Assembly (NCBI RefSeq): GCF_027532945.1
Contig: NZ_JAPZTZ010000003.1
Coordinates: 124,001 to 188,000, forward strand
DNA: 64,000 nt
Source: Phreatobacter sp.
GTDB lineage: Bacteria; Pseudomonadota; Alphaproteobacteria; Rhizobiales; Phreatobacteraceae
Direction: 5' to 3'
The notes beneath the pieces were generated by a model, which worked only from the letters and a program-made list of their open reading frames with translations, was not told the origin of the DNA and did no database searches. The translations under genes and the position numbers were made by a program. The first letter of the stretch is position 1. Each line of letters opens with the position of its first letter. Shown one piece after another: positions 16,381 through 23,378 of this stretch.

Positions 16381-17253
16381 ATGGCGAAAGTCGCGTTCCT
16401 CGGTCTCGGCGTCATGGGCTACCCCATGGCCGGCCATCTCAAGGCCAAGGGCGGCCACGAGGTGACCGTCTACAACCGCACCTTCGGCAAGGCCGAGGCC
16501 TGGGTGGCCCAGCACGGTGGAACCGCCGCCCGCACGCCAAAGGAGGCCGCGGCGGGGCAGGACTTCGTCTTCGCCTGCGTCGGCAATGACGACGACCTGC
16601 GGGCCGTCACTATCGGTCCAGACGGGGCCTTCCAGGCCATGACCAAGGGCGCGATCTTCGTCGACAACACCACCGCGTCGGCCGATGTGGCGCGCGAGCT
16701 TCAGGCGAAGGCCAAGGCGCTCGGCCTCGGCTTCGTCGACGCGCCGGTCTCCGGCGGCCAGGCTGGCGCCGAGAACGGCGTGCTCACGGTCATGTGCGGC
16801 GGCGAGGAGGGTGATTTCGCCCGCGCCGAGCCGGTGATCATGGCCTTTGCGCGTGCCTGCCGCCGTCTCGGCGGTCCCGGCGCCGGCCAACTCGCCAAGA
16901 TGGTCAACCAGATCTGCATCGCCGGTCTCGTGCAGGGCCTGTCCGAGGGCCTTCACTTCGCCCGCAAGGCCGGCCTCGACATCGAGCAACTGGTGGACGT
17001 CATCTCCAAGGGTGCTGCCGGCTCCTGGCAGATGGAGAACCGCTACAAGACCATCAACCAGGACAAGTTCGACTTCGGCTTCGCCGTCGACTGGATGCGC
17101 AAGGACCTGTCGATCTGCCTCGCCGAAGCCCGTCGCAATGGTGCCAAGCTGCCGGTCACTGCGCTCGTCGACCAGTTCTACGCCGAGGTCCAGACCATGG
17201 GCGGCGGCCGCTGGGACACCTCCAGCCTCTTCGCCCGCCTCGAGCGCAAGTGA
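16381..17253 (+). CDS. NAD(P)-dependent beta-hydroxyacid dehydrogenase (3-hydroxyisobutyrate dehydrogenase / GarR family)
   Basis: A 290-residue enzyme. Residues 5-15 hold the dinucleotide motif FLGLGVMGYPM, NRT at about 32 binds the NADP ribose phosphate, APVSGGQAGAENG (121-133) is the substrate loop, and Lys173 in GQLAKMVNQI is the catalytic lysine. The family oxidises 3-hydroxyisobutyrate or reduces tartronate semialdehyde; the DNDDDLRAV region fits either. It diverges from a TakP-like 2-oxo-acid binding protein over a palindrome, so linked control with carboxylate uptake is plausible. The ATG at 16381 puts the GxGxxG motif at the usual distance; an upstream in-frame start adds nine residues. 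Confidence 0.88.
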   Translation: MAKVAFLGLGVMGYPMAGHLKAKGGHEVTVYNRTFGKAEAWVAQHGGTAARTPKEAAAGQDFVFACVGNDDDLRAVTIGPDGAFQAMTKGAIFVDNTTASADVARELQAKAKALGLGFVDAPVSGGQAGAENGVLTVMCGGEEGDFARAEPVIMAFARACRRLGGPGAGQLAKMVNQICIAGLVQGLSEGLHFARKAGLDIEQLVDVISKGAAGSWQMENRYKTINQDKFDFGFAVDWMRKDLSICLAEARRNGAKLPVTALVDQFYAEVQTMGGGRWDTSSLFARLERK

Positions 17254-17311
17254 GAGCGGCGGAAGCGGCGGCACCGTCAGCGCGCCCGCTCCAGCGACCC
17301 CCCTCAATGCG

Positions 17312-17338
17312 AAGGGCCGGTGCGATGCACCGGCCCTT
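17312..17338. terminator. Bidirectional hairpin between convergent genes
   Basis: A 12-bp perfect stem (17312-17323 with 17327-17338) with a 3-nt loop lies between the dehydrogenase and the pseudo-caspase gene. The AA/TT ends suit termination in both directions, although the T-runs are short. Confidence 0.6.
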
Positions 17339-17362
17339 GTCGTTCTGGATGACGAAATCCCG

Positions 17363-19567
17363 TCAGCGCCGGTCACCCGGCCGGCGCGGCGCCGGACGGG
17401 CACCACCGCCTGCATTGGGACGGGCACCACCGCCGCCGCCCATGTTCGGACGCGGACCGCCGCCACCGCCCATGTTCGGACGCGGGCCGCCGCCACCACC
17501 GACGTTCGGGCGCGGAACACCGCCGCCGCCACCGAAGTTCGGGCGCGGACCACCGCCACCGCCACCGAAGTTCGGGCGCGGACCACCGCCGCCACCACCG
17601 AAATTCGGACGCGGGCCACCGCCGCCACCTCCGACGTTCGGACGGGGACGACCGGCACCGCCGCCAAAGTCAGGACGCGGACGACCGCCGCCACCACCGA
17701 AATCGGGGCGGGGACGACCGACGCCGCCACCAAAGTCAGGACGCGGACGACCGCCGGGACCGACCCCCGGACGGCCACCTGGGCGACCGACGACCGGGCG
17801 ACCGCCGGGCCCGCCCGTACCAAGGCCGGGACCCTGATTGCCGGGGCGGTTCGGGAAGGGCCGCACGCCGGGACCAGGCCCCCCGACACCAGGCCCGCCG
17901 ACACCAGGCCGCCCTATGCCAGGCCGGCCGATGCCGGGGCCACCCTGACCAGGCCCGAAGCCGGGACGCTGACCAGGTCCTCCCAGGCCGGGATTGATGC
18001 CGGGCCGCACGTTCGGCGGCAGGCCTACACCGCCCTGCGAGCCCGGGAGCGGCCGCCCACCCGGCACGACGCCGGGACGCAGACCAGAACCGGGACCGGT
18101 GAAGCCGGGACCGGGGCCGGGGCGACCGCCGGGAAGGCCGACAGGGCGTCCGACGAAATTCGGCGGCGGCAGCACGACGGGCGGGCGCGGCGGCCGGACG
18201 AAGCGGTGGATGATGATGGGCGCGGCGACGAGGGCGGCGACGCCGACCACCGGCAGCACGCCCCAGATCGGCGGCGGCGGTGGCGGCAGCACGTAGACGG
18301 GCGCCACGGGCGGACCGAGCCAGACCTCGCGGCCGATCACCACCTCGTCATAGAAGGCGGGCGGCGCCGGCTCCCAGTAGTCGTCGACATAGATGACCTC
18401 GACCTCCGGCAGCGGAGGCGGGATGTCGTCATAGACCACGGCGTCGAAGGCAGGCGGCGGCGCCGGCGGCGCGGAGAGCCGGGACAGGCGCAGGCGCGCT
18501 TCCTCGGCGTGCGGACCGCGCGGATAGCTCCGCAGATAGGTCCAGTAGGCCTGGGGCGAGTTGGTCCTGATCGTGCGGCGCCAGACCAGCGCCTCGCGCT
18601 TGGCGGCGAGCAGGCGCTGGACGCGGCGAGCGAGCGGATCGGTCGGATAGGCGCGCAGGAAGGCCTGATAGCCCTCAATCGAGTCGCGCTCGACCGCCAG
18701 CGCATAGGCCTCCTGGGCCGAGAGTCCGTCCATCGGCCGATCCGCAGCCGGGGGCGGCGGGGGCGGCGTCGAGCCGGTGGCCTCCGCGCCGGCATTGAGC
18801 ACCGGGGTCGGCGGCGTCAGCGTCGACAGCTCCCAGGGCGTGTCGCGACCATTGGTGAGCTGGTGAACGCGCAGGCGGGCCCGCGCGACGGCCTGGTCGA
18901 CCGGCAGGCCGGGCGAGGCCAGCTGTTCCACGAGGGCAGAGGCGAAATGGCCGTAGGCCGCCTCGTTGGGGGCGGAGACGGCGCCGGCGGCGGCGGCCGA
19001 CGCGATGACCATGGACGGTCCGGCATCGAGGATGCCAAGGCCCGCACGCACCGGCGGGCCGACATCGGCGAAGGGATGCTGGCGGGACACATCGAGCAGG
19101 ATGACCTTGGCGCGCGAGGGGATGGCGCCGAGAGCCCGCGTCAGGTCGTTGAGGCGGATGCCGGCGAGAGGCACGTCGCTCTCGCGCTGGATCACCGCGT
19201 CGGTCGGCAGGAGATAGCTGTCGCTGTCGTGCTGGAGGCCGACGCCGGCGACATAGACCACCGCGACTGCATCCGGCCCGGCGTCGCGCACCTGCTGGAC
19301 AAACGATGCGATGGCCTGGCGGAGTTCGGCCTGCGGCAGGTCGGCGCCCTCGGTCGTGGAGAAGCCGAGGTCGCGCAGGGTGCGGGCGACGAGACCGGCA
19401 TCGTTGAGCGCCGCCGGAACGGGATTGGTCTGGTAGGCACCAATGCCGAGCACCAGGGCAAGGCGTGTCTCGCTGGCAGCCGGTGCCTGAGCACGCACAA
19501 CCTCACCACCGGTCGTGACGGTCAAGGCGAGGACCAGAAGGCCCATCCATCGCTTGAACATGCTCAT
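17363..19567 (-). CDS. Caspase-fold (C14) protein lacking both catalytic residues, with Gly-rich tail
   Basis: A 734-residue protein with a signal peptide (cleavage near AQA, residues 26-28). Residues 33-250 follow bacterial caspase-family proteins (ALVLGIGAYQ, PAALNDAGLVARTLRDLGF, SYLLPTDA, RLNDLTRALG). The catalytic positions are changed: the family AGHG reads AGVG (Val109 for His), and DACR reads DVSR (Ser161 for Cys). Two helical repeats ending in YP (about 285-365) come next, then a Pro-rich stretch, a probable membrane helix (434-453), and a Gly/Arg/Pro/Asn-rich region from 470 to the end with about ten ~11-residue repeats. It should be proteolytically dead; a scaffold role is inference. 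Confidence 0.82.
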   Translation of the reverse strand: MSMFKRWMGLLVLALTVTTGGEVVRAQAPAASETRLALVLGIGAYQTNPVPAALNDAGLVARTLRDLGFSTTEGADLPQAELRQAIASFVQQVRDAGPDAVAVVYVAGVGLQHDSDSYLLPTDAVIQRESDVPLAGIRLNDLTRALGAIPSRAKVILLDVSRQHPFADVGPPVRAGLGILDAGPSMVIASAAAAGAVSAPNEAAYGHFASALVEQLASPGLPVDQAVARARLRVHQLTNGRDTPWELSTLTPPTPVLNAGAEATGSTPPPPPPAADRPMDGLSAQEAYALAVERDSIEGYQAFLRAYPTDPLARRVQRLLAAKREALVWRRTIRTNSPQAYWTYLRSYPRGPHAEEARLRLSRLSAPPAPPPAFDAVVYDDIPPPLPEVEVIYVDDYWEPAPPAFYDEVVIGREVWLGPPVAPVYVLPPPPPPIWGVLPVVGVAALVAAPIIIHRFVRPPRPPVVLPPPNFVGRPVGLPGGRPGPGPGFTGPGSGLRPGVVPGGRPLPGSQGGVGLPPNVRPGINPGLGGPGQRPGFGPGQGGPGIGRPGIGRPGVGGPGVGGPGPGVRPFPNRPGNQGPGLGTGGPGGRPVVGRPGGRPGVGPGGRPRPDFGGGVGRPRPDFGGGGGRPRPDFGGGAGRPRPNVGGGGGGPRPNFGGGGGGPRPNFGGGGGGPRPNFGGGGGVPRPNVGGGGGPRPNMGGGGGPRPNMGGGGGARPNAGGGARPAPRRPGDRR
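17415..17755. repeat. Tandem ~33-bp Gly-rich coding repeat
   Basis: About ten imperfect head-to-tail units of 30-36 bp encode the end of the pseudo-caspase, each giving GGGGG(G/R)PRPN(F/V/M) on the minus strand. A coarser repeat of GGPGVGGPG and GRPGIGRPG type lies just upstream in the protein (about 17880-17945). Confidence 0.8.
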
Positions 19568-19677
19568 CTGTGCTTCCCGTGTGATGCGTCGCCCGACCCG
19601 AGGCTATCAGTCTGCCCGCGAAACAAGACGAAATACAGGCCCTGACCGGAGGGCAGTCACGTTGCTGCGGTATGGCT

Positions 19678-20316
19678 TCAGCGAAGCCGTTCGATTTCCT
19701 CCCGCAGCACGGGGAGGAGCTCAGCGGTGAACCAGGGATTGCGATTGAGCCAGCCGGAATTGCGCCAGGACGGATGCGGCAGGACGAGGATGCGCGGCGC
19801 CGCGGAGGCCTCGAAAATCGTCCGCCAGCTGCGCACCGTCTCGCCGAGTGTCGGCCGGAGATGCGCCCGGAGACCGAGGCGTTCGAGGTGATAGGCCTGA
19901 GCCGTCGCGCCGATGGCGAGGACGAGATCGATCACCGGCATGGCGGCCATCAGCCGGTCGTGCCAGGCGTGCCGGCATTCGCGCCGCGGCGGCAGGTCGC
20001 CGCCCTTGGCGTCATGGCCGGGAAAGCAGAAGCCCATCGGCACGATGGCGACGCGCGCGCGATCATAGAAGACCTCCTCGTCGAGCCCCATCCAGGCCCG
20101 CAACCGGTCGCCCGACGGGTCTGTGAAAGGCTTGCCTGAGGCATGGACGCGGATGCCGGGCGCCTGGCCCGCGACGAGAATGCGCGCCGTCGCCGTGGGC
20201 CAGGCGACGGGCCGCGGCTCGTGGGGGAGCGGCGCGCCGCGCGGCGTGTCGCGGCAGATGCGGCAGGCAGCGATGGCGGAGCTGAGGTCCGCCAGCGTCT
20301 CGCCCTGCCCCGTCAT
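19678..20316 (-). CDS. Uracil-DNA glycosylase family protein
   Basis: A 212-residue protein. Motif 1 is VAGQAPGIRVHASGKPFTDPSGDRL, motif 2 is VLPHPSWRNSGWL, and C18-x2-C21 near the N-terminus together with cysteines in GFCFPG and RECRHAW could supply the [4Fe-4S] ligands of this branch. Members excise uracil or other deaminated bases from DNA to start base-excision repair. Many alphaproteobacteria carry such a UDG-superfamily protein besides or instead of Ung; the exact base preference is not readable. It ends 110 nt from the pseudo-caspase start and follows the GST gene by 8 nt on the same strand. Confidence 0.85.
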   Translation of the reverse strand: MTGQGETLADLSSAIAACRICRDTPRGAPLPHEPRPVAWPTATARILVAGQAPGIRVHASGKPFTDPSGDRLRAWMGLDEEVFYDRARVAIVPMGFCFPGHDAKGGDLPPRRECRHAWHDRLMAAMPVIDLVLAIGATAQAYHLERLGLRAHLRPTLGETVRSWRTIFEASAAPRILVLPHPSWRNSGWLNRNPWFTAELLPVLREEIERLR

Positions 20317-20324
20317 CGTCGGCC

Positions 20325-20936
20325 TCAGGCCTTGGCGCTCGGCCGGGCCGCCATGGCCGCGTGCCAGCGCTTCAGCTCCACCATCTCATCGGGCACCGCC
20401 ACCTTGGCGGGCTTGAGAAAATCGATGCCGATCATGGCGGTGATGTCCGCATTGGTGAAACGATCGCAGCAGAGATAGTCGCGGCCTTTGAGATGGCCGT
20501 CGAGGAAAGCGAGTTCACCGATGATGCGGGACTTGTTCAGCTCGCCCCATTCCCTGACCTGCGGCATTTCCATGATGGCCATGGCCGGATGGAGGTGGCG
20601 GAAGGCCGACGCGATGGTGGCGAGGAGGTTCAGCTCCATGCGGCGCGACCACATCTCGATCTCGCCGATTTCCCTCGGGGTGCGGCCGAACAGGTTGGGC
20701 TCGGGGTGCAGCGCCTCGATGTAGCGGCAGATGGCGATGGATTCGCAGAGGATCGAGCCGTCGTCGAGTTCGAGAGCGGGGGTCTTCTGGCGCGGGTTGA
20801 TGGCCGCATAGGTCTCGCTCTTCTGCTCCAGCTTGGCGAGGTCAATCGTCACCTTGGGGATGTCGATCCCCTTCTCGGCGAGGAAGACGCGGACGCGGCG
20901 CGGATTGGGCGCGAGCGGCGTGTCGTAGAGCTTCAT
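20325..20936 (-). CDS. Glutathione S-transferase
   Basis: A 203-residue cytosolic GST. The thioredoxin-like N-terminal domain has LYDTPLAPNPRRVRVFLAEKGI, with the usual cis-Pro region QKTPALELDDGSILCESIAICRYIEALHP: the ESxAIxRY element binds the glutathione gamma-glutamyl group. The helical C-terminal domain runs from about residue 85 and includes DRFTNADITAMIGIDF, the N-capping box of GSTs. These enzymes conjugate glutathione to electrophiles or reduce peroxides. The downstream UDG gene starts 8 nt after its stop, so they are likely an operon. Confidence 0.9.
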   Translation of the reverse strand: MKLYDTPLAPNPRRVRVFLAEKGIDIPKVTIDLAKLEQKSETYAAINPRQKTPALELDDGSILCESIAICRYIEALHPEPNLFGRTPREIGEIEMWSRRMELNLLATIASAFRHLHPAMAIMEMPQVREWGELNKSRIIGELAFLDGHLKGRDYLCCDRFTNADITAMIGIDFLKPAKVAVPDEMVELKRWHAAMAARPSAKA

Positions 20937-21034
20937 GGCGTTGTCCTCCTGCGCGCCGGCTGTCGGGCGCCGGCTTCGGCCGGGAGGATGGCCATGGCGG
21001 GGCGGCCGGGGTCAACCGACCAGACGGGGGAGGA

Positions 21035-22651
21035 TCAGCGCCTCGGGCCGAACAACGCGCGGCGCAGGGCCGTGACGGTGGGCGCGTCGGGAACCGCCGC
21101 CGGCTCCATGACGATCGGCAGAGGCATGCCGGAGGGGCTTGTCGCCGGACTGGCGATGGCCGGCAGGGCCTCCATGACGCGCTCCGACGGGAAGGTCACG
21201 GTGACCTCCGTGCCGATCCGCACCGTCGATTTCAGCGTGAAGGTGCCGCCATGCATGGTGACCAGGCCCTGCACGATGGGCAGGCCGAGGCCGGTGCCCT
21301 GCTCGGCATTCTTGATGGCGTTGGAGCCCTGGCCGAAATTCGACAGGACGATGGGGATTTCGTCCTCGGGAATGCCGGCGCCGGTGTCCTTCACCGAGAG
21401 ATATTGCCCGCCGGACGCGGTCCAGCCGACCTTCAGCGTGATCTCACCGCCACCCGGCGTGAATTTGATGGCGTTGGACATGAGATTGAGGACGATCTGG
21501 CGGACGGCGCGCTCGTCGGCCCAGATCTTCGGCAGGTCCGGCTCGAACCGCTCGACGATGGCGACGCCCTTGTTCTTGGCGCGCACCTTGAGGAGGTGAT
21601 GGCAGTCCTCGACCACGTAGGACAGCGTGATCGCCTCCTCGTTGAGGTCGTAACGGCCTGCCTCGATGCGCGACAGGTCCAGGATCTCGTTGATCAGCGA
21701 CAGGAGATGCTGGCCCGAGGAATGGATGTCGTTGGCATATTCGGCATATTGCGGCGCCGAATGGGGGCCGAACATCTCGCCCTTCATCACCTCGGAAAAG
21801 CCGAGAATGGCGTTGAGCGGCGTGCGCAATTCGTGGCTCATCTGGGCGAGGAACTGCGACTTGGCGATGTTGGCCATCTCGGCATTGCGCCGCGCCTCGT
21901 CGGAGTTGGTCTTGGCGGTCTCGAGCTCGCCGATCAGCGCATCCTTCTCGGCGCGGGCCTCGATGGTGGCGAGGTTGGTCTGGTAGAGCCGCGCAGAGAT
22001 GATGGCGAAGAACATCAGTGTGCCAAGCGCGATGGCCCCAAGCACCACACCCTGCATGCCGTGCAGCAGCAGGAAATAGGCAACGACGAGGCTCGCGACC
22101 GGCAGCGAAGAGGCGAAGGTCGCCACGGGGACGGTCGAGCCGATCATCGCGGACACGGCGACGACGATGAGCATGCCGACCAGCAGGAAGGTGCTGGCCT
22201 CCGGCACCTCGGTGCGCATCACCACGAGGAAAGCCAGGACCCAGGAAAGGCCCAGCATCGTCTCGGCGATGACGAAACGCAGACGCCAGGAGCGCAGGTC
22301 CGCCCGGTCAGCCGGCACCTTGAGGAAGGAGCGGGAGACGAGGACGCAGAAACCGTGGGCGATGAGGACGATGAGGCCGGCGCCGGCTCCCATGACGGGA
22401 TTGGTCACCCAGCCGGCGACCCAGCCGGTGGCGGCGGCGATGAGGGCAATGGCGAGGGCGGCGGAGAGCTTGTTCTGCGCGAAGGCGCGCATCAGCTCGT
22501 AATCGAAGGAGCGCTTGTTGCCGGTCGTGGAGGTGAGGCGGTCACGGGCGTCGCGCACATGGCGAAGCGTCCGCTTGCGGTTCTGCGCGTGCTGGCGGGC
22601 GCGCTCGGCCTGCCGCTCGTCCGGCTGCCCCTCTGCCCCCTCCATGCCCAT
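21035..22651 (-). CDS. Membrane sensor histidine kinase (PleC/DivJ-like core)
   Basis: A 538-residue kinase. After a charged, Arg/Gln-rich N-terminus, five or six membrane segments span about residues 60-220 without a large periplasmic domain, then a coiled segment leads into the HisKA domain with phosphoacceptor His273 in MSHELRTPLN. The ATPase domain has N393 in LMSNAIKFTPGGG, DTGAGIPEDEI and GTGLGLPIV, so all boxes are intact. The core resembles alphaproteobacterial PleC/DivJ kinases, whose usual partner is DivK/PleD; no response regulator is adjacent. I chose the ATG at 22651, which has AGAGGG upstream; a further in-frame ATG at 22732 lacks one. Confidence 0.85.
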   Translation of the reverse strand: MGMEGAEGQPDERQAERARQHAQNRKRTLRHVRDARDRLTSTTGNKRSFDYELMRAFAQNKLSAALAIALIAAATGWVAGWVTNPVMGAGAGLIVLIAHGFCVLVSRSFLKVPADRADLRSWRLRFVIAETMLGLSWVLAFLVVMRTEVPEASTFLLVGMLIVVAVSAMIGSTVPVATFASSLPVASLVVAYFLLLHGMQGVVLGAIALGTLMFFAIISARLYQTNLATIEARAEKDALIGELETAKTNSDEARRNAEMANIAKSQFLAQMSHELRTPLNAILGFSEVMKGEMFGPHSAPQYAEYANDIHSSGQHLLSLINEILDLSRIEAGRYDLNEEAITLSYVVEDCHHLLKVRAKNKGVAIVERFEPDLPKIWADERAVRQIVLNLMSNAIKFTPGGGEITLKVGWTASGGQYLSVKDTGAGIPEDEIPIVLSNFGQGSNAIKNAEQGTGLGLPIVQGLVTMHGGTFTLKSTVRIGTEVTVTFPSERVMEALPAIASPATSPSGMPLPIVMEPAAVPDAPTVTALRRALFGPRR

Positions 22652-22820
22652 CCGCGGGCCCTCTCCACGCAACGCAACGCCAACCGAGGTTGAAATGTGG
22701 CAGAGCTTGATTAACGGCGGGTCGACATCCATGGTAAACGAAACATGAACAGACCGTACCGCCGATTCCGTCCGCTTCGCCGGACCGCCCGATCGGCCCG
22801 CCCCGCCCATCGACAGCGCC

Positions 22821-23378
22821 ATGACCGTGCCCGCCCTCCTGCGCTTCTCGCGCTTTCGCAGCCTGCGGCCCCAGACCGGCTTTCTCTGGTTGCTGGCGTT
22901 GGTTGCCGGCATCACCGCGCTCGCCGTGCAGCATGCCTGGCGCAAGGCGGGCTCGCCGCGGACCGTTTCCGGCCATGCGCGGATCATTGATGGCGACAGC
23001 CTCGTCGTCGCCGGGGTCGAGGTCAGGCTGTGGGGCATCGATGCGCCAGAACTGTCGCAGCGCTGCCAGCGCGAGGGCCGGGAGGTGCGCTGCGGGCGGG
23101 AGGCCTATCGCTCCCTGATCGCGCTTGCGGCCGGTCAGCCTGTGACCTGCGAGAGCCGGGACATCGACCGCTACGGCCGCACCGTCGCGATCTGCCGCGT
23201 CGACGTGGTGGATCTCGGGCGGGCTCAGGTCATGGCGGGCCAGGCCGTGGCCTTCGGGGCCTATTACCAGGACGAGGCCGCGGCGCGGGATGCGCGGCGC
23301 GGCCTGTGGGCGGGCGAATTTGTCCGCCCCCGCGACTGGCGCGCCCAGCATCGCACCATCGTGCCCACGGAGCACTGA
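22821..23378 (+). CDS. Membrane-anchored thermonuclease-family (SNase-like) protein
   Basis: A 185-residue protein. A single hydrophobic segment (about residues 20-37) should anchor it or act as a signal, and the remainder is an OB-fold nuclease-like domain: RIIDGDSLVVAGVEVRLWGIDAPEL contains the Ca2+-binding Asp and the catalytic Arg of the SNase family, REAYRSLIALAAG follows, and DRYGRTVAIC supplies the second conserved Arg. The domain ends with GLWAGEFVRPRDWR. Hydrolysis of extracellular or periplasmic nucleic acid is expected. It is divergent from the histidine kinase across 169 nt. Confidence 0.85.
   Translation: MTVPALLRFSRFRSLRPQTGFLWLLALVAGITALAVQHAWRKAGSPRTVSGHARIIDGDSLVVAGVEVRLWGIDAPELSQRCQREGREVRCGREAYRSLIALAAGQPVTCESRDIDRYGRTVAICRVDVVDLGRAQVMAGQAVAFGAYYQDEAAARDARRGLWAGEFVRPRDWRAQHRTIVPTEH

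Follow-up and report, generated by a model that had tools for sequence, protein, structure and literature searches.

A pseudo-orthocaspase of Phreatobacter as a candidate membrane-anchored, non-cutting scaffold

Why a bacterium should keep a gene for a caspase-fold protein whose catalytic dyad has been replaced is the question raised by an open reading frame in a 64,000-nucleotide stretch of Phreatobacter sp. DNA (contig NZ_JAPZTZ010000003.1, positions 124,001 to 188,000; the whole of this stretch is referred to as the window). Judged by its sequence, the 734-residue product is a catalytically dead caspase homologue (a pseudo-orthocaspase) and has been so for a long time. The features that bear on what it might do instead of cutting are collected in Table 1.

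Table 1. Features of the pseudo-orthocaspase gene (window coordinates; residue numbers refer to the 734-residue protein)
Feature	Position	Strand	Basis
Whole gene: pseudo-orthocaspase, 734 aa, 0 cysteine	17363..19567	(-)	open ORF
Signal-peptide-like N-terminus, residues 1-26	19490..19567	(-)	sequence only
Caspase-fold (Peptidase_C14) domain, residues 34-251	18815..19468	(-)	Pfam, AlphaFold2, MALT1 fold match
Val109 at catalytic His position	19241..19243	(-)	
Ser161 at catalytic Cys position	19085..19087	(-)	
Asp159, retained in 46/46 intact and 56/56 pseudo domains	19091..19093	(-)	
Pro200; Asp there in 46/46 intact relatives	18968..18970	(-)	
His164, in 7/7 V-S/L-S domains of the genus (tree set)	19076..19078	(-)	
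His113, in those 7 V-S/L-S domains of the genus	19229..19231	(-)	
Five-helix TPR-like module, about residues 284-363	18479..18718	(-)	AlphaFold2 mean pLDDT 90.5; weak TPR/YfiO/CpoB similarity
Pro-rich linker, about residues 364-433	18269..18478	(-)	sequence; conserved in aligned genus proteins
Hydrophobic helix, residues 434-452, candidate membrane anchor	18212..18268	(-)	hydropathy
Gly/Pro/Arg-rich, Lys-free tail, residues 453-734, partly 33-bp tandem repeats	17366..18211	(-)	

The domain belongs to the caspase fold. The protein matches Peptidase_C14 at E 2.2e-25 (90.2 bits, against a Pfam cut-off of 21.4), and in an AlphaFold2 model made with 42 family sequences the pLDDT, averaged over blocks of ten residues, ranges from 80 to 98 over model residues 11 to 230. 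The best solved fold relatives of the modeled caspase domain are chains of the paracaspase MALT1 (Z 25.4, rmsd 2.7 over 215 residues); Pfam has no separate p10 match, and the fold aligns along MALT1 residues 339-563 (4i1r). MALT1 is proteolytically active and also carries Ig domains. In the Phreatobacter protein, in contrast, the dyad is lost, and Peptidase_C14 is the sole domain that Pfam finds at E 0.1, Ig-like domains being absent.

The first-pass annotation read the AGHG motif of the family as AGVG (Val109) and DACR as DVSR (Ser161), and this reading is confirmed by the open reading frame, by alignment to MALT1, which places the two residues opposite the His of AGHG and the Cys of DMCR, and by all 46 aligned intact relatives, which have His and Cys in these columns. 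The domain thus has the fold of an active peptidase and lacks its His-Cys dyad, and by its dyad it is a pseudo-orthocaspase in the sense of PMC6426788 (a p20 domain in which one or both dyad residues are replaced; that definition also includes the lack of a p10 domain in the paper's own search). The further statement that the flanking motifs are well kept is correct for the flanks that define the fold; it does not extend to Asp200, Ser206 and Gln242, positions that are invariant in the 46 intact relatives and often altered in the dead family. With no Cys anywhere in the protein there is no other His/Cys pair to occupy the active site, and an alternative Cys nucleophile is ruled out for this protein and, equally, for the 56 pseudo domains described below. 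That it is not a protease, as had been proposed, is well supported also by the family, none of whose 58 matches has the catalytic Cys. (The NCBIfam model for the EACC1-associated caspase, NF047832, scores 39.8 bits, under its cut-off of 140, and PADLOC, run on this protein and on a tandem protein considered below, returns the general 'caspase' model alone, at E 1.3e-05 and 3.5e-13, respectively.)

Is the loss local, or is it shared? The sample of the order, 397 genomes, was searched with the region behind the caspase domain only, and again with a profile of pseudo caspase domains (up to six candidates being scored per genome). The best 58 matches to the profile, at 287.8 bits or more, lack Cys without exception and lack His in 54 cases; the next 23 matches listed, from 269.1 bits down, all have an intact H-C dyad, as do two lower-placed ones. 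Fifty-six distinct pseudo domains were entered in trees (G008 and the G011 tandem, both L-S, being left out as close kin; dyads are written with the residue at the His site first). Their Cys site is Ala in 42, Ser in nine and Gly in five; their His site is Tyr in 36, Leu in seven, His in four, Val in three, Gln in three, Glu in two and Ile in one, the commonest combination being Y-A (30 of 56). Each of the 46 intact domains has exactly one Cys, and the pseudo domains have none.

In a tree of 82 domains from which the two catalytic columns had been removed, the 56 pseudo domains fall on one side of a branch with support of 100/99, and on addition of 20 intact domains the clade persists with support of 98 (quick tree, all columns). 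The tree program warned of long branches (L084, for example) and flagged the placement of the genus group beside L038/L039 as a possible artefact. The dyad counts and the one-clade trees imply that the split is old and common to the family rather than a local mutation, and among the 397 genomes no close homologue with intact His and Cys lies inside the family. As sampled here, the dead proteins go back to a single origin, are sharply set off from their intact relatives and are under strong purifying selection (see below), with the restriction that sampling by similarity to the dead family would leave pseudo-orthocaspases of other origin outside. Within the genus, the lineage of the window's gene is represented in two genomes with the V-S dyad and in five with L-S, and the genus has three more proteins of the dead family, with H-G, H-A and L-A. 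Four pseudo domains (L013, L017, L044 and L084) keep the His, while their Cys has given way to Ala or Gly; these are possibly intermediates or reversions. Three remoter C14 matches (G163:C152, G047:C68 and G283:C2:107012) have an in-frame stop inside them.

Pseudo-orthocaspases as such are already established. According to PMC6426788, 561 of 582 alphaproteobacterial representatives are in the Rhizobiales, and in PMC3501461 Ser and Tyr had already emerged as the most frequent replacements; as far as titles and the openings of abstracts disclose, alphaproteobacterial members are treated only in these two papers. The window's protein resembles the Rhizobiales YA/YS type (Klemencic et al. 2019, PMC6426788) in its C14 fold, replaced dyad, taxonomic order and long C-terminus, and its domain shares a single clade of 56 (100/99) with domains from the order that have Y-A and Y-S dyads and presumably are the class of that paper. 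On the other hand, Val at its His site, against Tyr in 36 of the 56 clade members, leaves it outside the YA/YS class as characterized by Tyr. V-S and L-S, compared with that type by description, do not figure in the part of PMC6426788 considered here, either among its most frequent dyads or elsewhere; its main text does not contain 'Val', 'Leu', 'tandem' or 'Phreatobacter'. That paper also found no identifiable domains in the long C-terminus; in the window's protein three parts can be told apart there, namely the TPR-like module, the hydrophobic helix and the Arg-rich tail. Synechocystis SyOC, again likened by description, is also a pseudo-orthocaspase and single in its genome, but is cyanobacterial, of another lineage, and has a Tyr-Gly dyad (PMC6426788); its deletion raises tolerance to H2O2 (PMC7889975).

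The signal peptide, membrane helix and long Gly/Arg tail of the first-pass annotation are all discernible, the first two as candidates from sequence and hydropathy. Between the caspase domain and the linker lies the TPR-like module, whose similarities are weak: TPR_9 matches in six of 44 family members (best E 0.001; the window's member has no match), CpoB is reached at E 0.0042, and the fold search gives a best Foldseek E of 0.45, with BamD chains as best fold matches (Z 7.3). Residues 434-452 are the most hydrophobic segment after the N-terminus (mean hydropathy 2.34). The 282-residue tail that follows contains 109 Gly, 63 Pro and 36 Arg, four Asp, no Glu and no Lys. Lys makes up 25% of Lys plus Arg in the 15 open reading frames of the window taken as genes, so that, were residues drawn independently, 36 Arg with no Lys would be expected with a probability of about 4e-5; the repeats violate that independence. 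(Part of the tail is encoded by a 33-bp unit repeated in tandem about ten times, at window positions 17425-17756.) The nine V-S/L-S proteins of the genus that were examined, seven single and two tandem, have the helix and a basic tail with 27-36 Arg and 0-1 Lys, and their hydropathy makes membrane attachment plausible.

Helix and tail are not common to the whole family. Most rows shown for other genera have a Pro-rich linker without such a helix, a comparable stretch being present in L039, and pseudo-family proteins L013, L014 and L017 of the same genus end in long, charged, repeat-rich C-termini rather than in helix and Gly/Arg tail. Many of the rows from other genera have a conserved NIHN-type motif in the linker, where the genus has helix and tail.

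The dead domain is under purifying selection. Compared with its counterpart in genome G003, the caspase domain has eight non-synonymous and 58 synonymous differences (dN/dS 0.042), and other segments of the gene have dN/dS of 0.036 to 0.105 (one genome pair, Nei-Gojobori by script). The protein is a clear case of a caspase fold retained for a purpose other than cutting.

On balance we consider it probable that this purpose is that of a membrane-anchored scaffold, a dead caspase fold that binds partners instead of cleaving them. The protein would be exported and held in the inner membrane by helix 434-452, with caspase fold and TPR-like module forming a binding unit in the periplasm. The topology of helix and tail is predicted from hydropathy; by the positive-inside rule the Arg-rich, disordered tail should lie on the opposite, cytoplasmic side, where it might serve as a tether for acidic partners, whether nucleic acid, lipid head groups or proteins. 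Its function would then be to hold partners, with no cleavage involved. The dead dyad, lack of a replacement Cys, shared origin, selection, and confidently modeled fold and helical module argue for this reading, as do the helix and basic tail of the nine genus proteins and the gene's standing as the only C14 match in three genomes; its 'scaffold' part is helped by the TPR-like module and purifying selection. Against it stand the restricted occurrence of helix and Gly/Arg tail within the dead family, the weakness of the TPR-like match and the lack of the gene in five of 12 genus genomes.

The first-pass annotation had offered 'scaffold or decoy' as a pair, and of these the scaffold stands, as an interpretation, while a decoy directed at an active caspase in the cell itself is unlikely. 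As a decoy or dimer partner the protein would control an active homologue, in the way that c-FLIP acts on caspase-8 (c-FLIP and TbMC4 are precedents cited in PMC6426788). What speaks for such a role is the existence, in G006 and G011, of proteins of 1127-1129 residues that combine, in one chain, an intact H-C caspase domain and an L-S pseudo domain belonging to the family, natural constructs that bear on whether a live domain is regulated by a dead one. In these tandem proteins (L029:4420-7752 and L009/L010) the two domains are joined by a long, charged, repeat-rich segment, and both genomes also have a single L-S gene. The window's genome (4.13 Mb, 97% complete), in contrast, has no second C14 match at E 0.001, and neither have genus carriers G001 (one contig, 100%) and G003 (99%). 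The dead protein is the lone C14 match in all three, so that the C14 search reveals no active paralogue beside it; a decoy role towards a C14 protease encoded alongside is set aside, and regulation of an active homologue is improbable overall. In these three genomes, where the dead form alone was found, its function could be tested with no active paralogue present. (G009, loci L106 and L150, has a lone C14 match of 81.9 bits, which the caspase profile built for this analysis does not recover.)

About equally improbable is that the dead groove still binds basic peptides, as a substrate trap or peptide reader. The acidic residues Asp159 and Asp56, which we take to correspond to the S1-pocket acids of MALT1, are retained in 56 and 52, respectively, of the 56 pseudo domains, but Asp56 has become Asn in three of the seven V-S/L-S domains of the genus, and Asp200, invariant among the 46 intact domains, is left in no more than four of the 56 pseudo domains. 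Other positions invariant in the intact relatives fare variously (Ser206 is kept in five and Gln242 in 24 of the 56). Conversely, positions that vary in intact domains are conserved in the pseudo domains, among them Gly58, Leu59, Arg83, Pro98, Pro133, Tyr205 and Arg233; the contrast is exaggerated by the closer kinship among the pseudo rows.

Conversion of the caspase fold to a putative serine-type hydrolase, in which Ser161 would be paired with a relocated His (His164 or His113), is very unlikely. Ser161 and His164 do occur together in seven of seven V-S/L-S domains of the genus, and these seven are also the only ones of the 56 pseudo rows to have His113. In the family at large, however, Ala occupies the Cys site in 42 of 56 members, and other positions that are invariant in intact domains have been lost.

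For alphaproteobacterial pseudo-orthocaspases an association with photosynthesis has been proposed in PMC6426788, and a photosynthetic role for the window's protein on this pattern can be given just as little credence. Its genome does encode two reaction-centre proteins (L060 and L061, contig C6). Carriers of the dead family, defined as the 51 genomes with a match to the region behind the caspase domain below E 1e-20, are nevertheless not enriched in reaction-centre genes: ten of 51 have them, against 65 of 346 non-carriers (Fisher p 0.85; 397 genomes). Within the genus they are found in five of 12 genomes, that is in two of seven carriers and three of five non-carriers (p 0.56). These tests ignore relatedness and cover the dead family alone, not every pseudo-orthocaspase, and within that scope they disfavour the role and weaken the published idea. 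(At E 1e-6 there are 67 genomes with a match; in 11 of the 16 genomes with only the weaker match the caspase domain was read, and it is intact in all 11.) On a tree of four neighbouring proteins, presence of the caspase gene needs one change and that of reaction-centre genes three.

That the gene is simply decaying, its dyad lost by drift, is hardly credible: it is missing from five of 12 genus genomes, but the dN/dS of 0.042 in the caspase domain (the one genome pair), the absence of internal stops from matches in carriers and the sharing of dyad loss by the whole sampled family stand against this, and a pseudogene is rejected on that dN/dS.

In all seven genus carriers the gene is flanked by a UDG-family gene on one side and by one for a hydroxyisobutyrate-dehydrogenase-like protein on the other (window 16384-20316), and in the five genomes without it these two neighbours are 30-55 bp apart, measured between match ends. 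So clean an absence implies that the gene is not essential to the genus. A scan for promoters and terminators yielded 0 and 2 sites, about the level of shuffled sequence. Upstream and on the same strand, at window positions 19678-23038, are genes for the UDG-family protein, a GST and a histidine kinase, with which the caspase gene might possibly be co-transcribed; the order of these three genes is identical at the six other single-gene loci of the genus.
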